64,000 bases of DNA, from contig JAFXAU010000008.1 in assembly GCA_017516865.1 (NCBI GenBank), positions 1-64,000 on the forward strand, in the 5' to 3' direction. The notes under the pieces were generated by a model. That model was given only the letters and a program-made list of their open reading frames with translations. It ran no database searches and had not been told where the DNA came from. The DNA comes from Bacteroidales bacterium. GTDB lineage: Bacteria > Bacteroidota > Bacteroidia > Bacteroidales > UBA1715. Of this stretch, positions 10,411 through 43,701 are shown piece after piece; positions within the stretch are counted from its first letter, which is position 1; every line of letters begins with the position of its first letter. A program made the position numbers and the translations under genes.

Positions 10411-11127
10411 TCATTTTGTTTTTAACATTTCTTCTAATGGAATGTCTGTCAATTTAGTGGTTTGTTTAAAAATATGAAACATCACAACAACCAGTATAAT
10501 CGTGCACGGTACAGCAATAATAGGAAAACTCAATCCTGTCAACTTTCCAATTTCCTCTGTATACGCCTCTGTGCCAGGTTGACTCTGCAAAATAATTCGA
10601 GCAAGTGTAAAATTTAAAATGGAGGAAAGCAAAAACGATACAACAACCCAATATGAGGACGAACGAAACATTTTATCGAATTCTTCACGGCTATTGCGTT
10701 CGTCCAAAGCACTATAAATTCGGTCCACATCAACAATGTCTTCATTAAAAAAGAGGCTGTACACCACGTTTTTATCTAATTTTATTGAGACAAAAACAAC
10801 CACGGCAATAATAAGTGGGACTGATGCCTCCTTAATTGTCATGACAACAGGACTCAGTTCCATTAGCCCAAATACACCTGTCAGTAGCACGCTCACAAAT
10901 CCTAACACCGAAATAAAATTTACTTGTCTGCTTCGTACAAAGTGAACTATACCATATATCAAAGGGAACGAAACTGCAACCGCAAGACTAACTTTCGGAC
11001 CAAGAGCAAACGAACCTTCGGTTCCGTTCATTTTTGTCATCACTATTACAGGAATGACAATGTTAAACAAAATGCTTACGAGCGAGTTTTCTTTTTTCTT
11101 ATTAGATATTTCTGTACCCATTTCCAT
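10411..11127 (-). CDS. VC0807-family inner membrane protein
   Basis: 238 residues from the ATG at 11127 (MEMGTEIS). A GTG five codons earlier would lie inside the terminator hairpin of the preceding operon. Five to six membrane spans with a charged cytoplasmic loop near the middle (DRIYSALDERNSREEF). The pattern GTEAYTEEIGKLTGL followed by IIAVP and LTDIPLEEML matches the uncharacterised VC0807 family. Function unknown. No promoter is visible between the hairpin at 11131-11167 and the start, so it may depend on read-through from the SusCD operon or on a promoter inside the upstream gene. Confidence 0.7.
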   Translation of the reverse strand: MEMGTEISNKKKENSLVSILFNIVIPVIVMTKMNGTEGSFALGPKVSLAVAVSFPLIYGIVHFVRSRQVNFISVLGFVSVLLTGVFGLMELSPVVMTIKEASVPLIIAVVVFVSIKLDKNVVYSLFFNEDIVDVDRIYSALDERNSREEFDKMFRSSSYWVVVSFLLSSILNFTLARIILQSQPGTEAYTEEIGKLTGLSFPIIAVPCTIILVVVMFHIFKQTTKLTDIPLEEMLKTK

Positions 11128-11130
11128 ACA

Positions 11131-11167
11131 TAAAAAACACACCTGTCAAATACTGGCAGGTGTGTTT
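11131..11167 (-). terminator. Strong intrinsic terminator after the susCD operon
   Basis: Stem AAACACACCTG (11135-11145) with CAGGTGTGTTT (11157-11167) and an 11-base loop. On the minus strand six T follow. It lies 20 bases after the stop of the SusE-position lipoprotein and only a few bases before the next gene's start. Confidence 0.85.
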
Positions 11168-11186
11168 AATTAACAAATACTAAATA

Positions 11187-12152
11187 CTATTTATATTCTT
11201 TTGCTGAAAATACGTATTCTTTGGTATATTCACTTTTAACAATCTTCGATTTATCGTTAGGATATGCCTCATCAGCATTTGTCAGATAACTTGTATAGCC
11301 TTCTTCAACAGCACTCTGAGATGCTAAAACTAAAGTTTTAGGTGATGACAAATCAACATTCCAAGTATACGTACCAAATTTAACACTATAGGTTATAGTA
11401 CCATCTGAAACAAAAGGTATACAGTTATTGACCTTAAAGATTACTGATGCCTTTGCAGGATCCTTTCCCGCAGGATATGTCACACAAACACCTGGTTTTA
11501 TACCTTTCTCGGTATCCTCATATATCAACTCATACGAACCTTTTGCACCAGTTGAAGTGCTAGATATAAGAGATCCAATTTTAAAAGATAACGAATATTT
11601 CTGATAACCGCCTGAGTTATACGGATCAGCTGCATTCCATAAATCAGTCTGTGTATCAATTACTTCAATGGAGTATGGACCTGCTTTTACCTCAGAATAA
11701 TCTTGTTTCTCGTAATCATAGTTGCGAGCAGTTCCATACATTTGAAACGGACTACCTGCAGGAGAGATGGTAGAAAAATTATAATTCTTATAAAATCTAC
11801 CCATTCCATCCTTCGATGCAAGAGCAACACCTGCCGCTTTCTTCGAAACATTGTTCACAGTATCCTTTATCAAAGAATCTGGCAAAGAACGCATTGAATA
11901 TTCATGACCAACTTCACCAGTCCAAACTACGTACGCAGAAGCATCTGTCCCTTTTGCAACAAAAACCAATTCATCACTTAATTCTATTGTAGATGGATTT
12001 GCATTAGCTTTAGACAAGTCTAACATATTTGCATTATAATCCTCAACGAGATACCAATTAAATTCTGCGGTATCGGGTTCCTCTACTTTATTTTTACAGG
12101 AACTTAAACTTGCTACTAAAGCAATTAAAGCAAAAATACTATACTTTTTCAT
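11187..12152 (-). CDS. SusE-position surface lipoprotein
   Basis: 321 residues starting at 12152. GGAGGA at 12161-12166 is 8 bases upstream, an unusually clear Shine-Dalgarno for this genome, and decides between three close Mets. A lipobox (SLSSC) near residue 19 marks an outer-membrane lipoprotein. No family was firmly recognised; strand-rich sequence with many Tyr, Ser and Asp fits a surface glycan-binding protein. Its place directly after susD suggests the SusE/SusF role of holding glycan at the cell surface. It ends the operon. Confidence 0.7.
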   Translation of the reverse strand: MKKYSIFALIALVASLSSCKNKVEEPDTAEFNWYLVEDYNANMLDLSKANANPSTIELSDELVFVAKGTDASAYVVWTGEVGHEYSMRSLPDSLIKDTVNNVSKKAAGVALASKDGMGRFYKNYNFSTISPAGSPFQMYGTARNYDYEKQDYSEVKAGPYSIEVIDTQTDLWNAADPYNSGGYQKYSLSFKIGSLISSTSTGAKGSYELIYEDTEKGIKPGVCVTYPAGKDPAKASVIFKVNNCIPFVSDGTITYSVKFGTYTWNVDLSSPKTLVLASQSAVEEGYTSYLTNADEAYPNDKSKIVKSEYTKEYVFSAKEYK

Positions 12153-12172
12153 ATTCATATTCCTCCATTTCA

Positions 12173-13918
12173 TTAATAACCAAGATTCTGTTTCAAATTA
12201 CCGCCAGTATGAAGAATGATTTCAGACTGAGGAATCGGCCAACGACCAAGTGTGGCTGTATTAAATTTAAATGTGTTACCAGCTAAATCTTTTTCTCTAA
12301 ACGTGTAAGTATTTGTCGCCAATCCCCAACGAACAATATCCCAATAACGTTCTCCTTCACCATACATTTCAACTCGGCGTTCGTGTTTTACCGCATCTAA
12401 ATCAGCAGAAGCAATATCCGCAGGTGTAGCAGCAGGAGTGTATGTATAACATGCGGCAGACGATCCAGCAACTTTATAATCTATAGTACGAGCACTATTA
12501 CGAGCACGTTTACGTAATTCATTGATTAAGGAAGTCGCTTCCGTTGTATGTCCGCTTTGTACACCTGCTTCAGCAGCAATCAACATCACATCAGCCCAAC
12601 GTAATAGAATATAATCCTTTCCAGCAACCTGAGAGTTAAATCCACCATTACACAATAACGAGTTAACTTCAGCCTGCTTCATATTATAATAGCCTGTATT
12701 ACATTCGTGTTTGCCAATTGCATACCATTTATCATCACTCGAAAGGCTTGTAATTTTACACCACACAGCAGTATCAAGATTTAATTTTGTAATCGTAGCA
12801 TCTATTGTTGCATCTCCGTGAGGACTTGCGACAATCATTGTAGCACGTGCATCGCCAGCTTCAAATTCATCCAACAGATTCTGCGTAGGAATGGCAAATC
12901 CATATCCAATTTCAGAATTCTGCATAGTAGCTTTTTCTGCAGGATCCCAGAAATAACGAGGAGACACATACAAGCAACGGATAGAACCATTACCTTGACG
13001 ATTATACATTGTACCACTCATAAATTGAATTGAGAACACAACCTCTTTGCTATTTTCATGCGTTTCACCATAGATATCGAACACATCTTGATAATGTTCT
13101 TCCAACGCGTAGGTGGAACCATTAGCTTCGGTATACAACTGGTAGGCTGTTTGATATGCATTTTCATAATCAGAACTATTGCTGCAGAAATCTGCTCTGT
13201 ACAAATATGCTTTTGCCAAGAATGCACGTGCAGCACCATTTGTTACCTTTCCTACCGCAGACGCCGTCTTTGGTAAATCATCTTTTATTGCTTCAAGTTC
13301 ATCAATTATAAAATCATACTGTGCACGAACCTGTTTAGAACCAACATTGTCATCTCCTGACGCACGGTTACCCAAATTTTCAGCATCAGCAACCGAAACC
13401 GATTGTTTTACCAAAATAACAGGACCGAAAATTTTCGTCAATTGGAAATAATACCATGCACGTAAGAAACGAGCTTCGGCACGCATCACCTTATATTTTT
13501 CTGCATTATCACCAGAAGTCAAGCTCTCTGTTCCATTTAACAATGCATTAGCACGACCAATGGCAATATACAATGATTGCCAAAGAGACTGCATTGCACC
13601 ACTTCTGTCTGTTGCAGCGAACACTGCCAACTGACCACCTTTATTCCAGTCATCTGCAGTAAGATATGTTGACTTTACACCGTCACCACCACGTTCACAG
13701 TCATCAGTACAGATGTCGCCAATTTTCCAAATTAGCTCATCATGAATTTCTTGCCATCCAAGTGGGTCATACACTGCATTCAGAGCAAGCTGACATTGGT
13801 CAGGATCATTATAATACGATGCGCTACTGGAAACTCCTAGAGGATCCTTGGTTATAAAATCTTCTGAACAAGAATATAACCCGAGCGTCGCTATCAATAT
13901 AATTGCTATCTTTTTCAT
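12173..13918 (-). CDS. susD: SusD/RagB-family nutrient-binding lipoprotein
   Basis: 581 residues, lipoprotein signal with Cys in LGLYSCSEDF. Shows the SusD pattern: the N-terminal DFITKDPLGVSSSASYY, a TPR-like helical region with ARFLRAWYYFQL, LLRWADVMLIAAEA near residue 430, and the C-terminal RRVEMYGEGERYWDIVRWG. SusD proteins cap their SusC partner and deliver glycans or peptides to it on the outer membrane. It lies 18 bases after the susC-like gene. The ligand is unknown. The gene symbol denotes family, not a starch substrate. Confidence 0.93.
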   Translation of the reverse strand: MKKIAIILIATLGLYSCSEDFITKDPLGVSSSASYYNDPDQCQLALNAVYDPLGWQEIHDELIWKIGDICTDDCERGGDGVKSTYLTADDWNKGGQLAVFAATDRSGAMQSLWQSLYIAIGRANALLNGTESLTSGDNAEKYKVMRAEARFLRAWYYFQLTKIFGPVILVKQSVSVADAENLGNRASGDDNVGSKQVRAQYDFIIDELEAIKDDLPKTASAVGKVTNGAARAFLAKAYLYRADFCSNSSDYENAYQTAYQLYTEANGSTYALEEHYQDVFDIYGETHENSKEVVFSIQFMSGTMYNRQGNGSIRCLYVSPRYFWDPAEKATMQNSEIGYGFAIPTQNLLDEFEAGDARATMIVASPHGDATIDATITKLNLDTAVWCKITSLSSDDKWYAIGKHECNTGYYNMKQAEVNSLLCNGGFNSQVAGKDYILLRWADVMLIAAEAGVQSGHTTEATSLINELRKRARNSARTIDYKVAGSSAACYTYTPAATPADIASADLDAVKHERRVEMYGEGERYWDIVRWGLATNTYTFREKDLAGNTFKFNTATLGRWPIPQSEIILHTGGNLKQNLGY

Positions 13919-13936
13919 TATTCTATGCCTATTAAA

Positions 13937-16900
13937 TTAAAAACCTAAATTAACACCAAACACAAATGTTCTTGCTTGTGGATATACACCACGGTCAATA
14001 CCAAATTCAGGACCTTCCCAGTTCAAACCAGAATCACCAGTACCGATTTCAGGATCGAAGCCCGTGTATTTCGTGAATGTCAGCAAGTTTTGACCTTGAA
14101 CATAAAGACGAAGTCTTTGTAATTTGATTTTTTCCATCCACTTTTTCGGGAACGTATATCCCAAAGTTAAGTTTTTCAGACGGAAATATGAACCTTTCTC
14201 TACGTATGCAGAACTTGGATAATACGTACCAGTAAACCACGACGCATCAGTCGGTTCAGAAGAACCTTTATTGTCACTTGACCATACATCCAAACGACGT
14301 GTTGACATATTAGAACCCAAGTTTCCACCATCCAAGTAATACTTCATGTTGTTAAAAATTTCATTTCCTGCAACACCTTGGAATGATGCACCGAAATCAA
14401 ATCCTGCATAACCTAAATCAATATTGAAACCATAAGTAAAATCAGGGTTCGGATTTCCTATACACGTAATATCATTTGCTGTGATTTGTCCGTCGCCGTC
14501 AATATCAACAATTTTGAAATCACCAGGTTTAGCACTTGGCTGTGCCGATTTGTTGATTTCTTCGTAATTCGAGAATACGCCATCTACTTTATATCCCCAG
14601 AATGATGCTATCGGATAGCCTTCCAATGTACGACACGCGTATGTCTTACCTCCTGAACGGTCTACGTTACCACCATAAAGAACTGAACCACCTAATTCAA
14701 GAACCTCATTATAGTTGTGAGAGAAGTTCACTCCGACACTATATGTAAATAAGTATTTACTTGAATCGCTGAATTTGAAATTATCTTGATAAATCAAATC
14801 CATTTCATAACCACGGTTCAAAATCTTACCAGCATTTACAATTGGGTTGTTACCTTTATCACATCCGACAACCGAAGGAACTGCGATAGAAACAAGGTTG
14901 TCAACATTTTTCTTCACGAAATAGTCGAAATTGAATTGCAATTTGTTTTTAAAGAATGCCATATCCGTTCCTATATCCCACGAAGTTGCTTCTTCCCAGT
15001 GCAAATCTTCATTTGCAACACCCTTAGCCACGGCACCAGTAACTGCATTTCCACCAAAGTTATATCCTGATTCAGGATCTTGTACAACAGATGTTACATA
15101 TTGATAATTTGCAATGTTTTCATTTCCAATCTTACCCCAACCACCACGGAGTTTCAACAAGCTAACATTTTCTCTCAAGAATTCGTTTCTTTGGAAGAAC
15201 ATTTCTTTATTAACTTTCCATGCAAAACCTAAAGATGGGAACATACCATATTTATGAGAAGCTCCGAATCGTGACGAACCATCTCGACGCAATGTGAAGT
15301 TAAACAAATATCTGTCTTTAAATGAATACTCCATACGACCGATATACGAAATCATAGAGTGTTCATTTGGCGCCTGCCATGTTTCCGACCATACCGGTTG
15401 GTCAGGATCGGCCTCACCAGAAATAATGTAATGTTGATAATCTTCAGTACCAATATTAATTACTTTCGTATTATATGCATTTTGTTTATCATACAACGCT
15501 TCGTGACCTAACAAGAAACGGAACCCATGATTAACCTTATTTGTATCTACCTTGTCATAGATATTAAATTTGTATGTAAACATGTTCGAAACATTCCATC
15601 CACTACCACCTTGTACAGTATTTTTCAGATAAGGGATTGTGTTTCTTTGTCCATCTGATACATAATAATATGGTTCATAGACTTCTTGTCCATTTTCCCA
15701 CTTGCTATAATTGAATTGTGTTTTATATTCAAGACCGTCAAGCAAGAAGTCTAACTTGTAATTCAACCATGCGCCACCACCTATACCATAACCAGTCTTT
15801 TCGTTATCATAATACTGCAAACTTACAAGCGGGTTGCCATAGGTCTGTCCAGAAGAAGAGCTTGCTTTTCTATCTGTACCAGTCGCATCTGCAGGTATTG
15901 TTGGGTCAAACAACAAAGACTGACCAAGTACTGTGTATTCAGCTTGAGCACCTTCGTTAATAACATCTTGCGTATGTTGGCTATAACCCAAGTTAGCACC
16001 AATATCCAAACGTTTGTTTACTTTATACATTGATTTCAAACCGAAATCGTATCTGTTATAGTTCGTTTTTTTCACGATACCATCTTGGTCTTGATAGCCG
16101 GCATTGATACTCCATGAACTTTTTGCAGAACCACCTTCAGCCGACAATCTATATTTTTGAATAACAGCTGTACGGAATATTTGATCTTGCCAATTTGTAT
16201 TTGCACCACCGAAACCTTCTGCTGCCGTATTAGTTTTGGTACCACCTGAAACAATGTCAGCATATTCATCACCAGAAAGCACATCGATTTGTTTCCACGC
16301 TTTTTGCAAACCGCGATAACCATCGAAATTGATGTTTACATATTCATAATCTGCAACCGAGTTACCACCTTTTGTCGTGATAAGCACAACACCGTTAGCA
16401 CCACGAGCACCATAGATAGCACACGAAGAAGCATCTTTCAAAATGGTTAATGATTCAATATTTCCCGGGTCGCCACGGTATTCATATCCTTGAGGTATAC
16501 CATCAACGACGTACAACGGACGAGCATCACCAGTAGTACCACGACCACGGATAACGATATCCATACCTGAGCCTGGTGTACCAGAGTTAGAAGTCACACT
16601 CACACCCGACGCCTTTCCTTGCAACGCCTGGTCGATTGCCAACACTGGAGCTTTTGAAATTTCGTCACCGCCGAAATTCTTGTTTGCACCCGTTGCGTCT
16701 TCCTTCCTTGCAGAAGCATATCCAATTGCGATTGCTTTGTCAAGCACAATGGCATCTGGAGTCATCGTCACATTGAAAGACTTTTTAGAGCCTACTTTAA
16801 TTTTTTGTGTTGCCAAACCGAGGTACTCGAATTCAAGTACCGCGTCAGCACTTTTCACAGTCAACGACCACGATCCGCTACCGTCTGTATACGTACCATT

Positions 16901-17059
16901 TGTCGTTCCTGCCTCAGAAACCGTACCTCCAATTACTGGTACTCCGTTCTGATCGACTACCTTTCCCGATACTGCAATCTGAGCATTGACATACCCTGCA
17001 GAAAAAAGCGTAATCACAAAAATGGACAAGCATTTTTTGAGTTTAAAGATTTTTCTCAT
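13937..17059 (-). CDS. susC: SusC/RagA-family TonB-dependent outer membrane transporter
   Basis: 1040 residues. Signal peptide to about residue 26; a carboxypeptidase-regulatory-like beta-sandwich at ~29-103 (SGKVVDQNGVPVIGGTV); the plug at ~118-232 (APVLAIDQALQGKASGVSV, IRGRGTTGDARPLYVVDG, LKDASSCAIYGARGANGV); and a 22-strand barrel ending in RTFVFGVNLGF. It imports a glycan or similar ligand using TonB energy, with the SusD lid encoded next. There is no N-terminal signalling (STN) domain, so it is not an anti-sigma-linked regulator. Regulation may come from the propeller sensor immediately upstream. Confidence 0.95.
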   Translation of the reverse strand: MRKIFKLKKCLSIFVITLFSAGYVNAQIAVSGKVVDQNGVPVIGGTVSEAGTTNGTYTDGSGSWSLTVKSADAVLEFEYLGLATQKIKVGSKKSFNVTMTPDAIVLDKAIAIGYASARKEDATGANKNFGGDEISKAPVLAIDQALQGKASGVSVTSNSGTPGSGMDIVIRGRGTTGDARPLYVVDGIPQGYEYRGDPGNIESLTILKDASSCAIYGARGANGVVLITTKGGNSVADYEYVNINFDGYRGLQKAWKQIDVLSGDEYADIVSGGTKTNTAAEGFGGANTNWQDQIFRTAVIQKYRLSAEGGSAKSSWSINAGYQDQDGIVKKTNYNRYDFGLKSMYKVNKRLDIGANLGYSQHTQDVINEGAQAEYTVLGQSLLFDPTIPADATGTDRKASSSSGQTYGNPLVSLQYYDNEKTGYGIGGGAWLNYKLDFLLDGLEYKTQFNYSKWENGQEVYEPYYYVSDGQRNTIPYLKNTVQGGSGWNVSNMFTYKFNIYDKVDTNKVNHGFRFLLGHEALYDKQNAYNTKVINIGTEDYQHYIISGEADPDQPVWSETWQAPNEHSMISYIGRMEYSFKDRYLFNFTLRRDGSSRFGASHKYGMFPSLGFAWKVNKEMFFQRNEFLRENVSLLKLRGGWGKIGNENIANYQYVTSVVQDPESGYNFGGNAVTGAVAKGVANEDLHWEEATSWDIGTDMAFFKNKLQFNFDYFVKKNVDNLVSIAVPSVVGCDKGNNPIVNAGKILNRGYEMDLIYQDNFKFSDSSKYLFTYSVGVNFSHNYNEVLELGGSVLYGGNVDRSGGKTYACRTLEGYPIASFWGYKVDGVFSNYEEINKSAQPSAKPGDFKIVDIDGDGQITANDITCIGNPNPDFTYGFNIDLGYAGFDFGASFQGVAGNEIFNNMKYYLDGGNLGSNMSTRRLDVWSSDNKGSSEPTDASWFTGTYYPSSAYVEKGSYFRLKNLTLGYTFPKKWMEKIKLQRLRLYVQGQNLLTFTKYTGFDPEIGTGDSGLNWEGPEFGIDRGVYPQARTFVFGVNLGF

Positions 17060-17132: not shown

Positions 17133-17162
17133 CAAATTTACAAAATTCATTCTTTTGAGCAA
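17133..17162 (-). promoter_or_regulatory. Putative promoter of the susCD operon
   Basis: Minus strand TTG (17160-17162), 19 bases, TAAATTTG (17133-17140). It lies between the sensor gene and susC, leaving a leader of about 70 bases. Confidence 0.6.
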
Positions 17163-17181
17163 GAAAAAATATACGAATATT

Positions 17182-20100
17182 TCAAACATTTAAAATTTTT
17201 GCCAAAACATCTTGTAAATCAGCAGATTTGTATGGTTTTGACACATACGTATCGAATCCTGCGTCGAAACATTTCAATTTGGATTCGTAATTACTATACA
17301 ATGTTTGAGCAACAATAGGAATCTGCTTATCAAACTTTCTAATTTCGACAACTGCCTCGAATCCATTCATACGAGAAAGCTGGACATCAAGAAGAATGAC
17401 GTCAGGAACGTATTTTTTTTGTTTTAGGTCTTCAACAAGCGTCAGCCCATCGGTTACGCGCAAAATAGATATATGCGTCGGAGCCAAGGCTTCGGTAATC
17501 AGCGAGAAACTTTCATCGTCGGAATCGGCGACAAGAACAGTTTTAGAACTCCAATCATAACGTTCCACAGATGGTTCATTAACAATTTCTTTTTCTGCAA
17601 CCCGAATTTCATTTTCCGATGTTGGAACCTCAACGGATTCAACTAATTCAAGACGGAACTCCAAAGCGATGATTGCACCTTTCAGATCGGTTTCGTATCG
17701 AGAATACTGACGGACATTTTTCTTATTGCCATCTTTGTCGAGTATTGTAAATTGAACTATTTCAGGTATTTTCCCTTCCATAACCAATGTACGATACTGC
17801 TTGACATTCTTTTTCTCCTCGTCGAGAAGCAGTGAGCGGAACGAAACTTGATTTTCCAAAAAATCTTTATCAGAATAACCCGTTAAATCTTGAACAGACG
17901 GACTTACATATTCTATTTTTTCTGACGGAAGCATCATTTTGAACACCACATCGTCAACATTGTTTTCATACAAATCGACTTTACGTTTCAATACAATTCT
18001 ATCGTGACTGAGATTGACCGTCCTCTGTTTCAAATCTTGAATCAAATCCTCACTTTTTTGCAATTTACCCAGCAAGACAGACAATTTCTTTTCCGCTCCC
18101 TCTCGTTGGTGTTCAGCCTCGGAACGTTGACGTGTTGCCGCATCGCGTTGCAGTTTAATCTGCATATTCTGTAATTCTATCTGCTGATTCTTCTGCTGAA
18201 TGTCTTTTATACGAAGTTCAACCTGTCGTTGCAGGCGATTTCGCATGCGAATCACACGTTGCATTCTTCTCATAAAGAACACTACAACCAGCACAAGCAC
18301 GAGCAAAAATATGGCAATATAGAATGACTTCATTTCCCACAACGCCTTGGCCTTATGAATTCGCAATTCTATTTTAGAATCCGATGAATCCATAAGATGT
18401 TTCACCCAGAAAACATAATCGCCGCCAGGTAAATTAGCATAACTGACGGTGTTTTCATCTTGCAGAAGCCGCCAATCGTTCTGAAATCCATCTAATTTGT
18501 AAAGATAATCCTTCGGTCGGGTTTCATCAAAATAGAAATCCGAAAACTTTATCGTAACATCACCCTCGTCATATGGCAAATCCAAATAATAAATGCCATC
18601 TTCATATTTAAACGTATATTTCTTTTTCCCACACGCAAAAATCGAGCGACCATGTAACAGAACATCTGTCAACCGGAGTTCCTGTAACCTGTTGTCTGAC
18701 ACAAGAACAGGAACAAACAACGATTTCACGTCTCTGTCGGTTCCGACATATAACTTATTTTCATCCAAACAAAGTGCATTTCGTTGAAATTCACCTTTTG
18801 ACAGTGCTGAAACAAATACAAAATTATTCGTCGGCAAATACACATACACCGTTTTCGGTGTTACAACCAACATGGAAGAATCTACCTGTGGAACTATGCT
18901 ACAAATAGCCAATCCATTCGAAATCTGGCCATTACTCAATGCGCAAATGGTGTCCTTATCTGCATCATAATAACTCAAGCCCTGCAACGAGCCGAACCAC
19001 ACCCTACCGTCTACGTTTTGAGTAATTGTTGTCACCACGGAACTTCGCATTCCGGGATAGGCGTCGTACCTATATATTTTAGTCGTACCCGACTCCGAAA
19101 TTTTTGTAATGCCATAATACGAACCTATCCATATATTATGGTATGCATCTTCAAAAAAACACGTTGAGCCATTACACGAAATATTTAAATTTCCGTCGTC
19201 TTCGTAACCCGTATAATGTCGTATAAACTTCTTCTGTTCCTTGTTAAACACATACACACCGCTTTCATACGTTCCAATCCACACATCCTGCCGTGAGTCA
19301 ACATATATAGTAGCAATACCTTTCTCCGGACATTGAGCCAACTGCTCCTCATACTGCAACGTTCCCGATTTTACCGAATAAGCATACACACCATGATTAT
19401 ACGTTCCAATCCATAGACAATCGCCGTCGGCAAACAACGAAGTAATCACATTGTCGAACGTTTTACCTTCCAGTCCTGTATTAAAATTAAAAACTTTACG
19501 ACTACGAGTTACTCTGTCGTACATATATAATCCTGCTCCATCGGTTCCTTGAAAATTCTTTCCTCCACACTCAGCGATAGCCAGAACCTTGCAGTTGGGA
19601 ACATTTTCAATAAAATCTTTGGAATTAAAATCGACCGAATTTCCTACTTTCAAAGAAACCCCGCCAAAAGCGTGACCGACCCAAATATTTCCGAAAGAAT
19701 CAGCCAACAACGACGTACAATTGTTATTGACAAGATTTGTCATATATCTTGATAAAGCACCGTCTGTCAATGACAACTCAAAAACACCGTCGGAACGAGT
19801 TGCGAGCAACAATGTAGAATCGGTCAGTTGCATTACATCATTCACACACGGATCTTGCAGATTTTTCAACGTATACATGCGCTTCTCTCCTTTTTTGAGT
19901 ACCACTACAGAGCCATCTATAAAGCAGACGCACACCGACGAATCACGCAAAGAGCACATGGACGAAACTGATGACTTTCCATCATACATCAAGCGGAATT
20001 CAGCATTTTTCGAAATAGAAGCAACCCTTCCCTGCTTATCTCCTATCACAACATAGTCGGCACTGTTTCTTACCGCAGCCATCACAAACGACTTCGGATT

Positions 20101-20613
20101 GTCATTCAACGGAATAATCGGACGAAGCGTGTCGTCGCCTGTTGCACAATAATACAAATACTTGTCGTCGGTCAGCACAAAACAGTCGTCATCGTTTGGG
20201 AAAACCTTCAACGCAGGCTTCATATTTATAGAACCCGACGCATTGTAAAAGTGGAAATGTTCAAACGAACCTTTCACTGGATTGAATCTATCCAACCCAG
20301 CCATTGTCCCTATCCAAATCGACTGGTTTATTTCAGGAGAAACTGCATTCACAAAATTGTGAGAGATACTATTTTCCTCGCTGGCAGAAGTCTGAAACAC
20401 ACGATAATCAAAGCCATCGCAACGAACCAAGCCGTTTTCCGTTGCAAGCCACACAAAACCTTGCTCATCCTGCGAAATCTGATGAATATTTCCATTTATA
20501 AGTCCCTCGTCAACAGTAAGATGTAACATTTTAGGATTCGACGCGGCCCACGAGGGCTGTACTGCGGCAAACCCTATACATAAACATACTATGACTATGA
20601 TCAAAAACATCAT
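17182..20613 (-). CDS. Propeller sensor with PAS and receiver domains but no histidine kinase
   Basis: 1143 residues. Signal peptide (~1-23); about 14 two-component-regulator propeller repeats (~28-670; FVWLATENGLVR, NIWVGHAFGGVSL, DVWIGTYESGVYV); a Y_Y_Y domain (~675-750; YLYKLDGFQNDWRLL); one membrane span (~762-785); a long coiled coil (~795-890); a PAS domain (~890-1000; YVSPSVQDLTGYSDKDF); and a receiver domain (1024-1143) with phospho-acceptor Asp1076, Thr1104 and Lys1126. Ordinary hybrid two-component systems continue into a His kinase, a receiver and an AraC domain. Here no H-box, no ATPase and no DNA-binding region exist, and the ORF is intact. It overlaps the DUF2027 gene by 4 bases and precedes susC, so it may signal glycan availability through an unknown kinase or partner. 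Confidence 0.9.
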   Translation of the reverse strand: MMFLIIVIVCLCIGFAAVQPSWAASNPKMLHLTVDEGLINGNIHQISQDEQGFVWLATENGLVRCDGFDYRVFQTSASEENSISHNFVNAVSPEINQSIWIGTMAGLDRFNPVKGSFEHFHFYNASGSINMKPALKVFPNDDDCFVLTDDKYLYYCATGDDTLRPIIPLNDNPKSFVMAAVRNSADYVVIGDKQGRVASISKNAEFRLMYDGKSSVSSMCSLRDSSVCVCFIDGSVVVLKKGEKRMYTLKNLQDPCVNDVMQLTDSTLLLATRSDGVFELSLTDGALSRYMTNLVNNNCTSLLADSFGNIWVGHAFGGVSLKVGNSVDFNSKDFIENVPNCKVLAIAECGGKNFQGTDGAGLYMYDRVTRSRKVFNFNTGLEGKTFDNVITSLFADGDCLWIGTYNHGVYAYSVKSGTLQYEEQLAQCPEKGIATIYVDSRQDVWIGTYESGVYVFNKEQKKFIRHYTGYEDDGNLNISCNGSTCFFEDAYHNIWIGSYYGITKISESGTTKIYRYDAYPGMRSSVVTTITQNVDGRVWFGSLQGLSYYDADKDTICALSNGQISNGLAICSIVPQVDSSMLVVTPKTVYVYLPTNNFVFVSALSKGEFQRNALCLDENKLYVGTDRDVKSLFVPVLVSDNRLQELRLTDVLLHGRSIFACGKKKYTFKYEDGIYYLDLPYDEGDVTIKFSDFYFDETRPKDYLYKLDGFQNDWRLLQDENTVSYANLPGGDYVFWVKHLMDSSDSKIELRIHKAKALWEMKSFYIAIFLLVLVLVVVFFMRRMQRVIRMRNRLQRQVELRIKDIQQKNQQIELQNMQIKLQRDAATRQRSEAEHQREGAEKKLSVLLGKLQKSEDLIQDLKQRTVNLSHDRIVLKRKVDLYENNVDDVVFKMMLPSEKIEYVSPSVQDLTGYSDKDFLENQVSFRSLLLDEEKKNVKQYRTLVMEGKIPEIVQFTILDKDGNKKNVRQYSRYETDLKGAIIALEFRLELVESVEVPTSENEIRVAEKEIVNEPSVERYDWSSKTVLVADSDDESFSLITEALAPTHISILRVTDGLTLVEDLKQKKYVPDVILLDVQLSRMNGFEAVVEIRKFDKQIPIVAQTLYSNYESKLKCFDAGFDTYVSKPYKSADLQDVLAKILNV

Positions 20614-21656
20614 CTATACACTTTTCGCAAATATACCAATGTTGCCCCAAACTTATACTTTTGGAACGACGCATCTTGATAATAATACTGTGGATAGTCC
20701 CTATCTAAACACCCTCTAATTTTCGCCTTGAGAATGCCATTTCCGACACCATGAATAAACACTATTTTTTCAATTCCGTCCTTCACTGCCTTTGTCAACT
20801 CGCGTTCAAACGTTTTTACTTGCAAGTCGAGTTTTTCGGCAGGCGACATTGTTTCTTCATTATCAACCAGTTCGCCAATATGTAAATCTACTTCTCGTAC
20901 CGATTCCTCATTTTTCTTAACCTGCGGTTTCGGATTTCCCTCAGATTTTTGTTTTTCGACCATTGCCTCGCGAATTTCTTCGACATTGACTTGCCGCAAC
21001 TGCTCACGTTGTTGCTCTTTCACAACTTTTTCAGCATCGTACAAATCAATCACATACGCGTCTTCGTCAAAAAAATCATTCACTACAAACACGCCTGGTT
21101 TGTAAAACTTGACAGGATTAATCGCCACCTCCGCATCAAAAACAGACTGCGAAGCGTAAGGTTTATTTTTATATAAAATACCTTGTAACTGCACTTTCGA
21201 CAATTTCGAAATTGCATCATACGACAAATCAGCCACTTTGATTTTTGCATTTGCTTCCAACATTCCCGAAGCAATACATTTCGACAATTCTTCCGACGGA
21301 GTGTACAATACATATAATAAATTATAGTTGCAGTCATTTATCAGATATGTCTCGAAAACTGCAGAATCTTTTGCATTTCTAACAAAAGCGACAAAAAGAT
21401 GCGGATTGTCGTTACCTTCTATTTCCTCATCTTCGACTTCTTCAACTGTTTCCGTAAAACTCTGCGTAGTTTTCGCAACGGTTTCTTTTTTCGGAGTATT
21501 CGGTCGTTCCACCAAAACCAACTCCTGTACACGAACTGGCATATCGAACCCAGATTCATCATGAATTTCCACAAGATTTTCGTTCAGAACCTTTGTCACC
21601 GTTCCGCCTCCAACCGCATTCAGATAACGAACTATATCTCCTACTTGCAATTTCAT
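20610..21656 (-). CDS. DUF2027 and Smr domain protein
   Basis: 348 residues, cytoplasmic. The N-terminus (MKLQVGDIVRYLNAVGGGTV) and middle beta-rich region match the Bacteroidota DUF2027 family. The C-terminal ~85 residues are an Smr domain with the DLHIG motif and the HGVGNG loop, a nuclease-like fold found in MutS2 and in proteins that act on RNA or branched DNA. A charged, Gln/Glu-rich linker (~205-255) joins them. It may act on nucleic acid, but no specific role is known. First gene of a two-gene unit with the sensor, transcribed divergently from queA. Confidence 0.85.
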   Translation of the reverse strand: MKLQVGDIVRYLNAVGGGTVTKVLNENLVEIHDESGFDMPVRVQELVLVERPNTPKKETVAKTTQSFTETVEEVEDEEIEGNDNPHLFVAFVRNAKDSAVFETYLINDCNYNLLYVLYTPSEELSKCIASGMLEANAKIKVADLSYDAISKLSKVQLQGILYKNKPYASQSVFDAEVAINPVKFYKPGVFVVNDFFDEDAYVIDLYDAEKVVKEQQREQLRQVNVEEIREAMVEKQKSEGNPKPQVKKNEESVREVDLHIGELVDNEETMSPAEKLDLQVKTFERELTKAVKDGIEKIVFIHGVGNGILKAKIRGCLDRDYPQYYYQDASFQKYKFGATLVYLRKVYR

Positions 21657-28890: not shown

Positions 28891-31800
28891 TTATTTTAAC
28901 ACTATCCTTGTGGTTTTTCTACCATTCTTTGTTTCAATTGTCACATAGTAGATTCCTTTGTCGTATTCGCTTAAATCGAAGAAGTATGAATATTCTCCAT
29001 CAACGAATACTGATTCCGAAACAACTTTTTTACCTGTTGTTGAATAAATCTCAACCGTACAATTTTCGGCAGATTCTGTTTCAAAGGTAACGTATACAGG
29101 TCCGTTTGTCGGGTTTGGATATACTGCCAAATTGCGAATGTCAATAGTTTCTATTGCATCACCACCGCCACCTTGTCCTTTACCGATAATAGTAAATGAG
29201 ACTTTCGCACTTGTCTGCAACCCTGCACTATTCTTTGCATAAACCGTCATTTCTTGCGTGCCACTCCACGTTGAATCGACAATTAAGAAGGTAACAATAC
29301 CCGCACTTGTTACTTGAGCCTTGATATTATCACCACCTTGATCTATTGACCAAAGTAACTCATCACTTTCATCAACAAAGTAATCATTCAAATCTATTGA
29401 TACCAATGTTTCTCCGTCATTCAGATTTACCACTTGTTCAGGAATTGGCATAATTTGAATCGGAGCATTTTGTGAAGAAACAATACATGAAATTTCGCAA
29501 TAAACACCACTTGATGCTGTTGCACGTATAAGAGCCTGACCATCGCCCAAAGCAGTCAATTTACCATTTTCAACGCTTACAATAGATGGATCCGATGATT
29601 TCCATGTAATTCCATCAGTTGAAGCATCGGCTGGTTCTATAGTCAATTGAACTGTCACAATATCGCCTTTCTTCATGCTCAGATTCGAAACAGACGGTAT
29701 GATTTTCGTAATCGGATTATCAATCACCGTAACCTCGCACCAAGCACTCTTATTAGAGTTATCATTTGCCGTTGCGGTAATCATTGCCGTACCAACAGAT
29801 TGGGCATATACAACACCATTTTGACTTACATACGCAACAGACGGATTCGATGACGTCCATGTTACCGTCTTACATGATGCGTTATCAGGATTTACTGTAG
29901 CCGTCAATGACTCTTGTGAGTCTATTACAAGTTCCATTGCAGTTTTATTCAGACTTACACTTGTAGCCAAAATCGGACTTACAACAATATTGATTGACGT
30001 ACTTGAATTCGAAGACAATGCCGTTGCCGAAATTGTAGCCTTTCCTGCAGCAACAGCCGTCAACATTCCGTTATTGAGAACCACAACAGCTGGAGCTCCA
30101 TAATCGGGAGTTTGTTTTGTTATTTCAAACTTCATAGACTTATTTGTCGCATTTTCAGGAACAAATACTATTAACGAAGCCAAATCTACCACATCACCAA
30201 TCTCAACTTGAGTAACTGAATTAGTGTAAATGTACTTAACAGGGATAGCCGTTGCCTGAACTGTAACCTGAGCCGTACTCTTCACTCCATTCGATGCGCG
30301 AGCCGTCACTGTTGTAGTACCTTCGGCAACGCCAGTGATTTTACCAGTATTTTCGTTAATTGTAGCAATTGACGCATCACCGACCGACCACGTAAGAGTC
30401 TTATCAGTTGCGTTACTTGGCGAAATTTGCACAGGAATAGTCTGCGACTCGCCAACAGCAAGTGACACATTCGACATCGTTATTGTTTCAACCTCAATTT
30501 CTCTTACCGTGACGATACATGTACCATAAATATTATTTGTCGCCGACGTTGCCGTAATTGTAGTTGTTCCAACTCCGTTAGCAGTTACATTACCGTATTG
30601 GTCTACCGTTGCCACAGATGTAAGACTTGATGCCCATACGAGAGACTTATTCGTGGCATTAGTAGGAGTAATGACAGCCGATAACGAGGAATTTTCATTT
30701 ATATGCAATACCATTGACGATGGTTCTATCGTTACCTTTGAAACCGCAATGACATTTCTTGTCACATTCACAACGCAACTTGCAGTCTTACCGTTTGACG
30801 TAGTGGCAATAATTGTAGCCTCGCCAATTGATTTTGCTGTAATCTTTCCGTTTACATCAACCGAAACAATTGACGGATCTGTTGACGACCATTCTACAGA
30901 TTTATCAGTTGTTTTTTCTGGTAGAATCGTTGCAACAAGTTGTTGTTGCTCATTTTCCAACAATGTTGCAGTTGTCGTATTCAACGAAATAGAGGTTGCA
31001 AGCATAGGATTTACCGTTACAGAAACTGTCTTTTTCAACCCGTTCCCTGTAACCACTTCAACTATTGTAGAACCTGCGGCAATCGCCTTTATTACACCTC
31101 TATTGACCGTAGCAACATTTTCATCTTTTGAAGTCCACGTTAAAACCGTATCCGTAACATTTGCAGGAGCAAGTGTAGCAGATATTTCCTTAGTTTCATC
31201 GATTTCCAACGTACAATTAACAGGAGACAACGTAATCGATGTCGGTTCTATATGATTTACGGTCAAAACACACGTTGCAGTTTTTGCATTCACCGTTGTA
31301 GCTGTAATTTCCGTAGTTCCGACCTTTTTAGCCGTTATACGTCCATTTACTACAACTGCAACCGCTTCATTCGACGATGCCCATGTGATTGTTTTATCGG
31401 TAGCATTCGACGGAGTAATGGTTGCAACTAAATCTTCTTGACCATTTACCAACAATGAAAGTTCGGAGTAATTCAACACAATTTTTTCAACCTCGACAGG
31501 TTTTGCTGTTATGACGCACGATGCAGCCACACCATTGTTAGCCGTTGCTGAAATCGTTACAGTTCCTGCCGCAAGAATTGTAACGTTACCATTATCATCA
31601 ACAGTAGCCTTGGTTCTATCCGACGTCGTCCATGTCAATGTTTGGGTTGTAGCATCGTCTGGCGACACAGTCGCTGATATCTGGAAGTTATCACCAATAT
31701 ATTTCACAGCTGAAGTCTGATTGAACGTAACCGAAGATACAGGAATTATATCTTTTATAACCGAAACTCTCACCATTTTTTGGAATGTTGAATATCCATC

Positions 31801-34800
31801 GGATACAGTTACTGTTATGATAGTATTACCTTCTGCAACAGGTGAGATTTTACCTGTTTTTGTAACCGTAGCACAAGCTGCATTTGAGCTTTCAAACAAC
31901 GTATATTCCGTACAAGCGTTTATTGGAGTTATAGAAACATTTACTTGTGCAGAACCTGTTTTTGTAATTTCAATAGATTCATTATCAACACTGATAGAAG
32001 AAATTCTTGTAGTACAACCTGTCAAAACAACTGGAATTGTTGCAGTTTTCTTAGTTCCATACATATCGGTAACCTCAGCAGTGACAATCACGGTTTGGGT
32101 ACCGTACATCAAGTTGTTTGTTATGTCGCCATCTTGGTCAACTGTGGCACCTGTACCAGAAACGCTCCATACTATAGATTGTGTAGTAACCGATGTCGGA
32201 TTCAACACCAACAGCTTTAACAAGTCGGCAGACTGATTGATTGCCAATGCCACCGACGATTCTGAGAACGTAACCGATGTAATGGCTTGGTAATCAACCG
32301 TGACATTAACATCTTCCGTAACCTCATTTGCCGAAGAAACAGTTATTACAGCCGAACCTTGACCAACGGCCTTCACAACACCATTCGACACGGTTGCGAC
32401 TTGCGGATTTGAAGAAGACCACGTCAATGTCTTGTTTGTTGCATTATCAGGGTTAACTACAGCAGTCAAAGTCTGCGTATCGCCTATCTTCATTGAAAGC
32501 GACGCTGGCGTTACGTCAATTGAACTAACGGCAACAACTTCAGATTCAACATTAACAGTAATTACTTTTGTGACATTATTCTTGGTTGAAACAATAATTG
32601 TTGTAGTTCCCTCTCCTACCGCTTCAATCAAACCGTCAGCCGTCACAGTCGCTTTAGTTTCGTCTAACGACGACCAAGTTAATTCCGTGTTTGTCGCATT
32701 TTCTGGTTCAAAAGACACCGTAACTTGTTGTTTATCACCTATAGTCAATGTAACTTCTTCGATATTTAACACAATATTTGTTATTTCAATATCCAAGATT
32801 TGAAGTGTATAATAATCTGAAACTCCGCTTGCTGCAGTTGCGGTAATAGTTACATTTCCGCTTGCCAATGCCGTAACAACACCTTTATCCGAAATAGTAG
32901 CCTTTGTCAGATCTGACGACGACCATGTAATTTTCTTATCGTCTGCATCATCAGGTGTAATTGCCGCCGTCATTGTTTGTGTCGAGCCAACATACATCAT
33001 TTTTGCCTGTGGAGTCACACTAATATCGGTAACCTCTTTTTCTGCCACAGTCAAATTACATTCTGCGTATGAATCTGCATTTTGTCTTGCAGTAGCACGA
33101 ATCACAGTAGTACCATATTTTAATGGTGTAATTTGACCATCTTCAACGGTAGCAACCGTTTCATCTGACGACGACCACAGAATTTCTTCGTCACAAGGAT
33201 TGTTCGTTGTGATTTCAGCCGTCAATTTAAGCGTTGACGTCTTGTAAATTGTTTTTTCCGTCTCGCTCATCACGACCTCAACCGCACCTGAATTACAATC
33301 AGAAGAAACATTTACCGTACAAGTCGCCTCGGTAACACCGTTACCCGTCGTTGTAGCTGTAATTGTCACAGGTCCCACGCCCACCGCATTGACAATGCCA
33401 TTCGACACTGTCGCAACTTGCGTATTTGAGGAAGTCCACGTCACAACATTGTTTTCCGTACATTCATCATTTGGAGTAATTGTAGCAATCAACTGTTCAT
33501 ATTGCCCTTTTACCAAAGCCAACGATGATTTGTTCAAACTCAATGTAATATCGCCAGAACAGTCTTTTGACACATTTACGCGACAAACAGCGGTCTTAAC
33601 AGAAAATCCATCGTTTACCGAAATGGTAATATCACTGTATCCTTTCGTTGTCAAGGCAGTCACTTCACCTGTTTCCGACACAGTTGCAACCGATTTGTCA
33701 GAACTTGAATATGTCACTGATTTAACACACGCGTTCGATGGTGTTAATGAATACGACATTTGTGCCTTTTCTCCATAGAACAAATTAAGATTTGCATCTG
33801 TGCTAACCAATGCAACCTCCGTAGGACAACCTGTAAGAGTAGCTTCTATCGTTTTTGTATATAAATTACCACTCTTGTCTGTTACAACAACTGTAATTAT
33901 AACATCCTCAGTTCCATACGCCAATTTGTTTGTCAAAACACCAACACCATTCACCGAAGCAGACTGAACATCGGAAACAGACCAATCATACGATTCTATC
34001 GTAGCATTACTTGGCACAAGCGACAGATAACTTGCTAAATTTACTGTTGCATTTTCCGAAACATATACTTTCGATTGCGAGAACGAGACAGATGTCAGAG
34101 GAACTTTCAATTCTTCTACTGCGAATGTAATGGAAACAATAGAACTTGCACCTTCACTATCTGTAGCACGAACTTTTACTATGTCGGACCCTATCCATTC
34201 GTCATCTTTTGCAGTTACCGACAAGACACCCGAAGTGATTGTCACATTAAGATATTCCGACGGATTTACCAACTCGTATGCCAGAGCCGAAGATTCTGTA
34301 ACATCGTCGCTTGCAAAGTTCGTCAAGTTAATATTTATGAACGAACCACCTTGCTGAATTGTTTGCTCAGGAATTTCAGCCCAAACAGGAGCGGCGTTTA
34401 TCGTAATTTCAACATCTGTACCAAAACGTAATTCATCAATCGTGATTGTTCCCGATGCCGAAGCGGAAGAACCTTTATCGAAATACAACTTCATACCATA
34501 TATTTCAGACGAATTTGCATTTGCAAATTTTCCTGTAAAATCAAATGTGTACGTCGTATATTCGTGACCAGCAGAACATTGTGCGGCAGCAACCGAAGAT
34601 GCCGTTGTTTTGCCATTGGCATCAAACAATTCAACATAAAGCGATGTTGGTACTGTTGTTTTCAACGTAACCGACGCATACGGATTTGAAGACAGATCCA
34701 ATATCTTATAGTCCTCATCTACAAGATTATACGTAATGGCATCAGAACCGGCACCTGTTCTGCTATACGCAACTTGCATATCGCCGCCATTGTAGTGCAA

Positions 34801-37800
34801 AGCATACAAATCCGACGACTCGCTCCACCCTTTCACAGCAGGACGAACAACGTAATCCGTATAACCATCGATAACCGAAGGAGTTACAACATATTGAATC
34901 TCATATTCATTCACATTGGTCAAATCCTGCGAAATAACTTTCACGTATGCTGTTCCGTCAAGACTTGAGGCCTGTGTGACTTCCAAATAAGCAGCATCAT
35001 CCGAAGCCACTGCCGAAACAGTAGGAATCGTCTCCGTACCTGCTGGCAACGTAACCGTATAAGAATGAACGTCTTTGTTAAATGCCAACGACAATCCTCC
35101 ATTCAACGAGATAGACTGCAAATCGGCATTGTCAGACAATGTAACAACGGTTTGCTGACCTGTAGCAACTCTTGGCCCTATTACCAAATTGTCTATGTAC
35201 GCAGCTTTTTTACGAGCTTTCCTTGTATCGCCAGGACCATACAAACCAAATCTAACCGCTACAATTGCTGTTTTTGTTATATAACTTGCTGTTGCGAAAT
35301 TCAACGTTGTTGTTCCTGTTGTAGAAGAATTTATTGTTTCGGCTGGTGTAATATAATCCGACACGTTGCCATACACATCGACCAAGGCAACATTGAACGG
35401 GAAATATTCATTATCTACTGTTACTCCGTTCAATGTTTTTCCATTTGCAACGCCAACAATATCTAAAGAAACATTCAATGCAGAAGAACCATCTAACACA
35501 TAACCTGTTGGAAGGTGATATTCTACATAACCATATTCTTGTTCTGTTCCCTTTTCATCCAATGCAACTCCAAGTTTGTATTCTTTCGTCGTGACTTGAC
35601 CTGGTCCCATTCCTGTTGTTGTCGTTATCGTTTCCCAACTAACTTTGTGTATGTCATTATTGGTACTTACATTTCCAATACCTGTCGTAAAATCATCAGA
35701 CCATTCTGTCACAATATTTTGCGATGAAGCGGCAGTATATGTTATCTCATACTGCTTCGTCGAACCATTTTCTGCCGTAACAGTAACAACAGTTGCCTCA
35801 GCAAGCGTTTCCGCATAATCAATATCAACCATTGCATTCGGGTCGGTGGCTATGGCAGTAAGATACGGCACATACGTCGTGTATAGTCTTGCAACATATT
35901 GATATACTGTAGGCGAGAATGCAGGTGAAAGTTCACCACCACCAAGTTCAAGTGTTGCAAGCGTTGCATCCGAAGAAGCAGCAATCTTGAAACTTACCGT
36001 ATATGTTTCACTGTTATATCCATTTGCAGAAATTACCTTCACAATTGCCTGTTCGCTCAACGATGTTGCTTGTGTAATCGTTACCGACGCTCTTTCGTGA
36101 ACCGTCGTTGCAGAGATAGTAGGAACCTGTGTTGTTCCTGCCGGCAACGCACATTCATACGCCAAAACCGAAGTAGAAACAGAAGGAGTAATTTCGCCTA
36201 TCGAAGCCGTCAGTGTTTTGAGAGCCACACTGGAATTTACCGACTGGTTTTTCGCCTTATACGTCGGCGACATTTCTTCCCAATTATCAGCCAATTCCGG
36301 ATAACGACCATAACTTACGTTTTCGGTCTGAACGTCAAATGAGACTTGGTCGATTATTTCAATTTCTCCATTAGCATTAATCTGGCTCAAAACCACATCT
36401 TCGCCAGCCGAACCACTTAAAGAAAAATCGAGGTGATTTGCACCAAGTTCCGGCTTGCCGTCAGCCCAGAAGGTAATCCATTTTCCTGCCTGGACAGTCG
36501 TAAGTGCAGAATTTGTCGTCGGGATTCTATAACGCAACGAATAACCTAACGAATCGCTGACAAACAAACCTCCGAGGTCTATTGCCGAATTTGTTCCATT
36601 GTAGAATTCAATGTAATCGCTATATGCGCCTGTTTCGTCAGCCACAATCGAAGTATTTACGGCAAGAACTTCGTTGATTGTCACGCCCGAAACTTCGTGT
36701 ACCGAAGCCGTATTTGCATTTTGTGCATTTGGAGTCGGAGTCAGCAAATAACGGAACTCAGACTGAGGGTTCGGATACCGTCCGTAAGCAATGTCATCAC
36801 CTTGGTTTGAATACGAAATTTGGTCTATGACATAATTTTCGGAACCACGCAACTGCACGATGGCAATATCACCTTTTTCGGCAGGCAATTTAAAATCAAC
36901 GTGATTAGGATTGATGGCCGTCTGCTTATCACACCAGAAAATATAATATCCGCCAGCTCTAACCGTTGTTTTTGTCGGCTCGCCTTTTGGTATCATATAT
37001 TTGTTCAGGTTGTTCAAATCGTTTGTCACGAACAAACCACCCAAGTCAATATCTTTATCTGTTGTATTATAGATTTCGAACCAATCGGCATACGAACCTG
37101 TTTCTTCTCTCACTGTCGAGCTATTCTTCGACATAAATTCATTGATTACCAAACCATCGACGTATGTGTCGGAAACAATTGTATTCGATGCATTTGGAGT
37201 GGTCTGAGTAAAGATAATCAAATTTGAGTTTCCATCAGGATAACGACCGTATGAAACGTCTGTATTTTGTTGAGAATAACGGATTTTGTCAATAACAGTC
37301 ATTGCTCCCGAAGAACTTTTCTGCGACAAGATAATAACACCTTCTGAACGGTCTAATTTAAATGGCAGATGTAATGCTCCGTCTTGCGGTTCATTGTCGG
37401 CCCAGAACAAAACATATCCTTTTGATGGAATCCTCGTTTTATCCATTGAACCATACGGAATTTTATATTTTTCAAGATTGGTAGTATCATCTGACAAATA
37501 AAGACCAGCCAAATCTATAGTAGAACTGCCGCCATTATATATTTCAATCCAATCTTCGTGTTTGTTATTTTCGCTTAAAACATCGGTGCTATTTGAAGCA
37601 AGGAATTCATTTACGTACAAATTCTTTTCTGTCGAACGATTAGAGAAAACAGCCGTAATTGATGTAGTATTTGTTATCGTTACAAAATACTCCGGATCGG
37701 TTGAAACGGTCGTATTTCCATTTTTCCAAGCCGAGAACACATATCCGTCTTTCGGTTCGGCAGTCAGACGAATTGCACGGCTTTTCTGATGAGTCGCCGA

Positions 37801-42637: not shown

Positions 42638-43701
42638 TGCGAAAGACACTGCTCTTTTTTTTCTCGTTAGTTCTTTCCCTATCGATTAACGCACAACGGA
42701 TTTCCATCCAAGGAAATTCGTTTGTCTGCAATGGGGAAAAAATATTTTTTGTTGGAACCAACACGCCGTGGGACAATTGGAACGATTTCGGAGGAAATTT
42801 CAATCCTCAATTTTGGGCTGACGAGTTTGCAAAACTTGAAAAAAACGGCATCAATAGCAGCAGAATATGGATTAGTTGCGACGCCGCAGGTCAACCTTTT
42901 GTTGATGTCGAAGGTGTTACACATCCTGCCACGCAACAATTTTGGGACAATCTCGACTATTTGATGAATTTGGCGACAAAACATAAAATCTATGTCATCG
43001 CCACCATATCGTCGTTCGATAATCTTGACGAGACAAAACCTGCCTCAAAAAATTGGATGGCGCTGCTGAACTGTACCCAAAAACTCCAACAATACTGCGA
43101 CACGTTCCTCAAACCTTTGATAGAACGATACAAGGACAATCCATATTTTTTTGCAATCGACATCTGCAACGAACCAGAATGGATGCACGAACATAAAAAA
43201 TACGGCAAAATGGAATGGGATTTTATGCAGATGTTCGTGGGAATGTGCGCGGCGGCAATCCACTCCTATAACACACAAGTGCTTGTAACTGTGGGCAGTG
43301 CGTCGGTTAAATGGAGTTGCGACAAATTTGAAGGCAACAAGTGGAGCGACGCGATTTTACAAGATATTACAATGAATCCCCTCGCCTATCTCGATTTTTG
43401 GCAGATACATTATTATGAATGGACAAACCAATTCGGTAATCCGTTCCACGAAACGCCCGAACATTGGGGACTGGACGACAAGCCGTGCATTATAGGCGAA
43501 ACGCCTGCAAACAATAAAATCTACGGATTCCCAATCTCTTACGACGAAATCTATTCGCTCCCCTATTCGCTCGGCTACGACGGCGTGTATCCGTGGACAT
43601 CGAACGGAGCAGGAACGGGAGATTTCGGAACACTCAAGAATTTTGGAGATGCGGCAAAAAGAATGTCTCAACAAGTAAATAACTCTAAATCTAAGAAATA
43701 A
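42637..43701 (+). CDS. GH5-family glycoside hydrolase, single domain
   Basis: 354 residues, signal peptide ending near NAQR. A single GH5-like barrel with acid/base Glu179 (IDICNEPEW) and nucleophile Glu288 (CIIGETPAN), plus FWQIHYYEW on the strand between them. No sorting tail or lipobox, so likely periplasmic; it may process oligosaccharides released by the larger GH5 enzyme. Its ATG overlaps the previous stop (TAATG at 42635-42639), and its own stop overlaps the transporter start the same way. Substrate (mannan-type or glucan-type) inferred from family and context. Confidence 0.88.
   Translation: MRKTLLFFFSLVLSLSINAQRISIQGNSFVCNGEKIFFVGTNTPWDNWNDFGGNFNPQFWADEFAKLEKNGINSSRIWISCDAAGQPFVDVEGVTHPATQQFWDNLDYLMNLATKHKIYVIATISSFDNLDETKPASKNWMALLNCTQKLQQYCDTFLKPLIERYKDNPYFFAIDICNEPEWMHEHKKYGKMEWDFMQMFVGMCAAAIHSYNTQVLVTVGSASVKWSCDKFEGNKWSDAILQDITMNPLAYLDFWQIHYYEWTNQFGNPFHETPEHWGLDDKPCIIGETPANNKIYGFPISYDEIYSLPYSLGYDGVYPWTSNGAGTGDFGTLKNFGDAAKRMSQQVNNSKSKK

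Follow-up and report, generated by a model that had tools for sequence, protein, structure and literature searches.

The propeller/Y_Y_Y receptors of the HTCS type in Bacteroides (4a2l, 3v9f) resemble the receptor described here in their propellers, Y_Y_Y region, single membrane span and neighbouring SusC/SusD genes, whereas the receptor lacks the dimerisation-His domain, the ATPase and the AraC domain and ends in a pseudo-receiver. A receiver counts as a pseudo-receiver when one or more of the five catalytic residues are missing, the commonest loss being that of the second acid (Bourret et al. 2025, PMC12632262). FrzS, CikA and ShkA (PMC12632262) keep, as does the receptor, the receiver fold minus one catalytic residue; in the receptor, however, this domain caps a kinase-free transmembrane propeller protein. 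The pseudo-histidine kinases DivL (PMC4211667) and BT4236 (PMC11253607) have likewise lost catalytic parts while the protein was retained, but both keep the kinase fold, which in the receptor has been deleted. Receivers can act by binding, as described for the VirA receiver with VirG (PMC4705274) and for FrzS (PMC12632262), and the switching of bacterial pseudo-receivers and pseudo-histidine kinases is regarded as a largely open question (PMC12632262). We consider the receptor a variant of these already known kinds, pseudo-receivers and pseudo-kinases, to which it adds the combination of a deleted kinase fold, propellers and a pseudo-receiver. A limited literature search found no transmembrane propeller receptor with a deleted kinase fold and a genus-wide pseudo-receiver, and no publication in the literature searched was found to join "two-component regulator propeller" with "receiver domain".

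The receptor gene lies within a window of 64,000 nucleotides, by which we mean the whole stretch of DNA that was analysed (Table 1). An earlier, sequence-only reading had called the N-terminal half of the protein HTCS-type, and there the label holds: periplasmic Reg_prop and Y_Y_Y regions precede a membrane span, and the propellers are related to the solved HTCS sensor domains 4a2l/3v9f (1e-48). Beyond the membrane the label does not fit, as the HisKA/HATPase_c core is absent and the C-terminus is a receiver rather than the AraC-type HTH of an HTCS, which is missing from the receptor and from its kinase-bearing orthologues alike. The same reading had described a cytoplasmic half without dimerisation-His, ATPase or AraC regions and had proposed an HMM search for HisKA, HATPase_c and HTH; with Pfam at E<=10, none of these was detected in the whole protein or in the cytoplasmic third alone. 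It had also allowed for a HATPase domain that structure prediction might reveal. In an AlphaFold2 model of residues 782-1143, built from seven orthologues (pLDDT 80), the cytoplasmic half consists of a helix 100 residues long, a sheet resembling that of PAS domains and a receiver of (beta-alpha)5 fold, and the best 50 Foldseek matches of this model are nearly all receivers, with no kinase ATPase domain among them. No missed kinase was found with Pfam and NCBIfam at permissive E, in the fold model or in the PDB fold search, and the description of the cytoplasmic half is borne out. The open reading frame proved intact and joined to the DUF2027 gene, as that reading had stated.

Table 1. Features of the receptor locus, with positions counted from the first nucleotide of the window.
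Feature	Position	Strand	Basis
DUF2027-Smr gene, upstream, 4 bp overlap (ATGA) with receptor gene	20610..21656	(-)	conserved synteny
Kinase-less propeller receptor, 1143 aa	17182..20613	(-)	ORF intact; in 7/7 genus members
Periplasmic beta-propellers, residues 25-645, behind N-terminal hydrophobic signal sequence	18679..20541	(-)	Reg_prop 4e-24
Y_Y_Y region, residues 646-757 (Pfam 703-747)	18343..18678	(-)	Pfam
One membrane span, ~residues 763-781	18271..18327	(-)	hydrophobic stretch in sequence
Coiled coil, residues 786-885	17959..18258	(-)	conservation and continuous helix in model
PAS domain, residues 886-997 (Pfam PAS_3 901-973)	17623..17958	(-)	Pfam and model
Linker, kinase-loss junction, residues 998-1022	17548..17622	(-)	alignment with sister genera
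Pseudo-receiver domain, residues 1023-1143 (Pfam 1026-1137)	17185..17547	(-)	Response_reg 5e-19, fold, clade
Ser1031 at Mg-binding second acid position (DD2)	17521..17523	(-)	receiver alignment
Asp1076, phospho-acceptor position; Ser in G004	17386..17388	(-)	receiver alignment
Lys1126, conserved active-site lysine	17236..17238	(-)	receiver alignment
TAAATTTG, -7-type element before susC	17133..17140	(-)	conserved in 7/7 genus members
SusC/RagA TonB-dependent transporter, directly downstream	13937..17059	(-)	TIGR04056 5e-237
SusD partner lipoprotein	12173..13918	(-)	1 of only 2 SusD-like_3 (PF14322) matches in genome

The same kinase-less architecture is evident in all seven genomes of the receptor's genus (the named records are of uncultured Bacteroidales, chiefly from rumen, reticulum and horse faeces); the other six members encode open frames of 1123-1189 aa with 48-53% protein identity to the receptor in the window. 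There is next to no chance that an assembly or frameshift artefact stripped the kinase from an ordinary HTCS, an objection that the sequence-only reading had itself raised, because the in-frame kinase-less form is repeated in seven separate genomes, six of them at this degree of divergence. The architecture search across Bacteroidota suggested in that reading was carried out in 395 genomes for homologues of the PAS-receiver junction; among these the junction was seen in the genus only, and outside it the matches at E<=1e-23 comprised the receiver only. At the DUF2027 locus, the sensor is absent from G009, G010, G013 and G015, a set that covers g4, the second genome of g2 (G010) and one outgroup (G015).

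Gene order is constant throughout the genus (7/7), running from a divergent queA through DUF2027-Smr and the receptor to SusC and SusD. SusC/SusD stand directly downstream of the receptor in all seven genomes and in neither of the two sister genomes whose flanks were fully read. The element TAAATTTG before susC, which we take to be a -7 element of the Bacteroidales type (consensus TAnnTTTG), is promoter-like and conserved, so that co-transcription with the receptor is not necessary. No Rfam RNA was found in the region. On the minus strand at 10411-17059 of the window, SusC/SusD are followed by the gene of a 328-aa protein, which has no Pfam or NCBIfam match, and then by that of a VC0807-family membrane protein, an order that is also conserved in the genus.

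The origin of the receptor can be traced through positional orthologues in two sister genera (G007 and G008; 1384 and 1392 aa), which follow queA/DUF2027-Smr at the same locus, and through a third sister genome (G011) in which the orthologue is present as a fragment. These sisters show the propeller-TM-coil-PAS order of the receptor and a receiver of the same clade; unlike the receptor, they keep HATPase_c between PAS and receiver, while HisKA is undetected or partial, and all five catalytic residues are present in the two complete sister receivers. In the alignment with the sisters, all seven kinase-less proteins display a clean gap of ~246 residues at the PAS/receiver junction. The receiver tree unites the genus receivers with both complete receivers of the sisters in one clade (support 100/99). 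It sits within hybrid-kinase receivers; of the seven response regulators in the receptor's own genome, six fall elsewhere and the seventh forms a long branch of uncertain placement. This single clade indicates that the kinase core was lost and that no foreign receiver was added. Judged from alignment and tree, the receptor is a descendant of a propeller-PAS-hybrid histidine kinase, from which the genus deleted a kinase core of ~246 aa.

The phosphoacceptor His box SHEIR[TN]P is kept in all of the 15 outgroup hybrid kinases that were parsed. In the three sister orthologues the His is gone: the sequence that stands in place of the box is not conserved, and the ATPase still has its asparagine and glycine boxes. 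Such a loss is not unheard of, since the published HTCS BT4236 has Gln in place of the phosphoacceptor His (PMC11253607), and 0.9% of sampled HisKA domains are without it (PMC12632262). The simplest reading of these sequences is a stepwise loss, in which the His would have gone first (the sister state) and the kinase core second (the genus), although the two may possibly have been lost independently, rather than the sister state being an intermediate. The "reversed logic" that had been attributed to a transmembrane sensor ending in a receiver is better put as a hybrid kinase that gave up first the His and later the kinase core. A model of the sister cytoplasmic half reached a pLDDT of 54, too low for use. 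In G011, a low-coverage genome, the frame of the kinase-bearing orthologue (L066:1-2376) is broken inside the receiver, reflecting either decay or an assembly error.

The sequence-only reading was correct in placing Asp1076 and Lys1126 in the receiver, but it overlooked a defect in the acidic pair that binds the metal, which reads D1030-S1031 instead of E/D-D, so that the receiver departs from the canonical set (DD, D, T, K) at DD2. Among the seven genus members, the second-acid position is occupied by S, F, F, Y, D, A and A, and G004, the only member with Asp retained at this position, carries Ser instead of the phospho-Asp. Each of the seven (7/7) has thus lost either the acid pair or the phospho-Asp, while Asp1076 is kept in 6/7 and Thr1104 and Lys1126 in 7/7. 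The receptor shows the receiver fold and HMM match but not the full set of five residues, and from their sequences all seven genus receivers are pseudo-receivers as defined by Bourret et al.

Every segment of the kinase-less genes shows nonsynonymous change far below synonymous change, the synonymous sites being near saturation, and in all seven the PAS and receiver frames remain unbroken and subject to purifying selection. The distribution of this constraint differs with the state of the kinase: identity in the kinase-less pair G001-G002 is 98% in the coil, 76% in PAS and 81% in the receiver, as opposed to 72%, 94% and 93% in the kinase-bearing pair G008-G011. The interaction gave p ~1e-7 for this contrast and was significant in every pair of pairs tried (p from 1e-4 to 5e-13), values to be read in the light of few, non-independent genome pairs and of a G011 gene that is fragmentary with a broken frame. 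In the coil of G001-G002, pN is 0.02 against a pS of 0.77. Positions invariant throughout the genus make up 42% of the coil, compared with 21-29% elsewhere, with QIELQN.Q..LQRDAATRQR as an invariant stretch, and conservation of PAS and receiver does not exceed that of the propeller; the coil of the sisters is poorly conserved. These substitution patterns show that constraint moved from PAS and receiver in the kinase-bearing proteins to the coiled coil in the kinase-less ones. A profile of the coil matches only the receptor gene in its own genome, and among 295 genomes of the order it gave three weak matches outside the genus, of which the one that was read (L125) proved to be a SpoIIE phosphatase carrying a signalling coil.

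We lean slightly towards the receptor being a former hybrid kinase that now signals by conformation and docking and not by phosphate transfer, probably through partner binding by way of a rod-like stalk. After the losses of His and kinase core in the lineage, the metal site of the receiver would have decayed to that of a pseudo-receiver. A ligand in the periplasm, probably a nutrient of the glycan type because the SusC/SusD operon adjoins the receptor, would change the packing of a propeller dimer; this change would be relayed along the coil, whose exposed surfaces, with those of PAS/pseudo-receiver, may then bind or release a putative cytoplasmic partner, a docking step suggested by conservation. 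Docking was one of two options offered by the sequence-only reading; the other, phosphorylation in trans, is weakened by the loss of the second acid (6/7) or the phospho-Asp (1/7). Such a gene family would present successive stages in living lineages, from a kinase minus its His to no kinase and a broken receiver, together with a measurable transfer of selection onto the coiled coil, and it provides a defined orthologue set for testing the change of the receptor from phosphotransfer to binding.

Several alternatives have to be weighed against this. The receiver might still be phosphorylated, by one among the few histidine kinases of the cell or by a small phosphodonor, and thereby alter the receptor or drain phosphate from a different pathway; the intact receiver fold in model and Foldseek search and the retention of Asp1076, Thr1104 and Lys1126, which exceeds what a wholly free receiver needs and so speaks against docking, would agree with it. 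We nevertheless judge this improbable, since a broken acid pair or a lost phospho-Asp makes phosphorylation of the receptor by another protein unlikely. The kinases found in the receptor's genome (PhoR-like, VicK/PhoR-like, NtrY-like, LiaS/NarX-like and LytS-like) also argue against it, as they adjoin or classically pair with their own response regulators, the NtrY-like kinase being paired with a distant NtrC-type regulator by homology and not by adjacency. An orphan kinase acting in trans was rejected as a candidate on the same grounds.

Alternatively, the cytoplasmic output could be vestigial and its domains decaying, with only the propeller of importance (e.g., in binding glycans or aiding SusC/SusD). 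The successive disappearance of the His, the kinase core and the metal site of the receiver, as well as PAS and receiver domains no better conserved than the propeller, would be expected in this case, whereas a coil that is the best conserved segment, and PAS and receiver frames held intact by purifying selection in every member, would not, and we regard a vestigial output as rather unlikely. The coil could also be a mere structural stalk of strict sequence, which would count against docking, as loosely similar signalling coils also precede SpoIIE domains. A further-reaching version of the docking reading, in which the receptor stands outside two-component chemistry, the newly constrained coil grips or releases a cytoplasmic partner and thereby governs the adjacent SusC/SusD uptake operon, and the receiver serves only as a docking fold, is offered tentatively and is itself doubtful.

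Other observations concern the same genome and the remainder of the window. A 1001-aa propeller/Y_Y_Y membrane protein, encoded at G000:C31 ~271930-274940 (L073:7933-10938, minus), ends in an HD domain and not in a kinase. Within the window, a 7TMR-HD protein (7TM receptor with intracellular HD hydrolase) is encoded at 50177-52261 (-), and a single uninterrupted ORF of 3686 aa occupies 28891-39951 (-). At 40205-45392 (+), the genes for a T9SS-tailed GH5-like protein, a 354-aa protein unmatched in Pfam and an MFS sugar transporter are tightly spaced.
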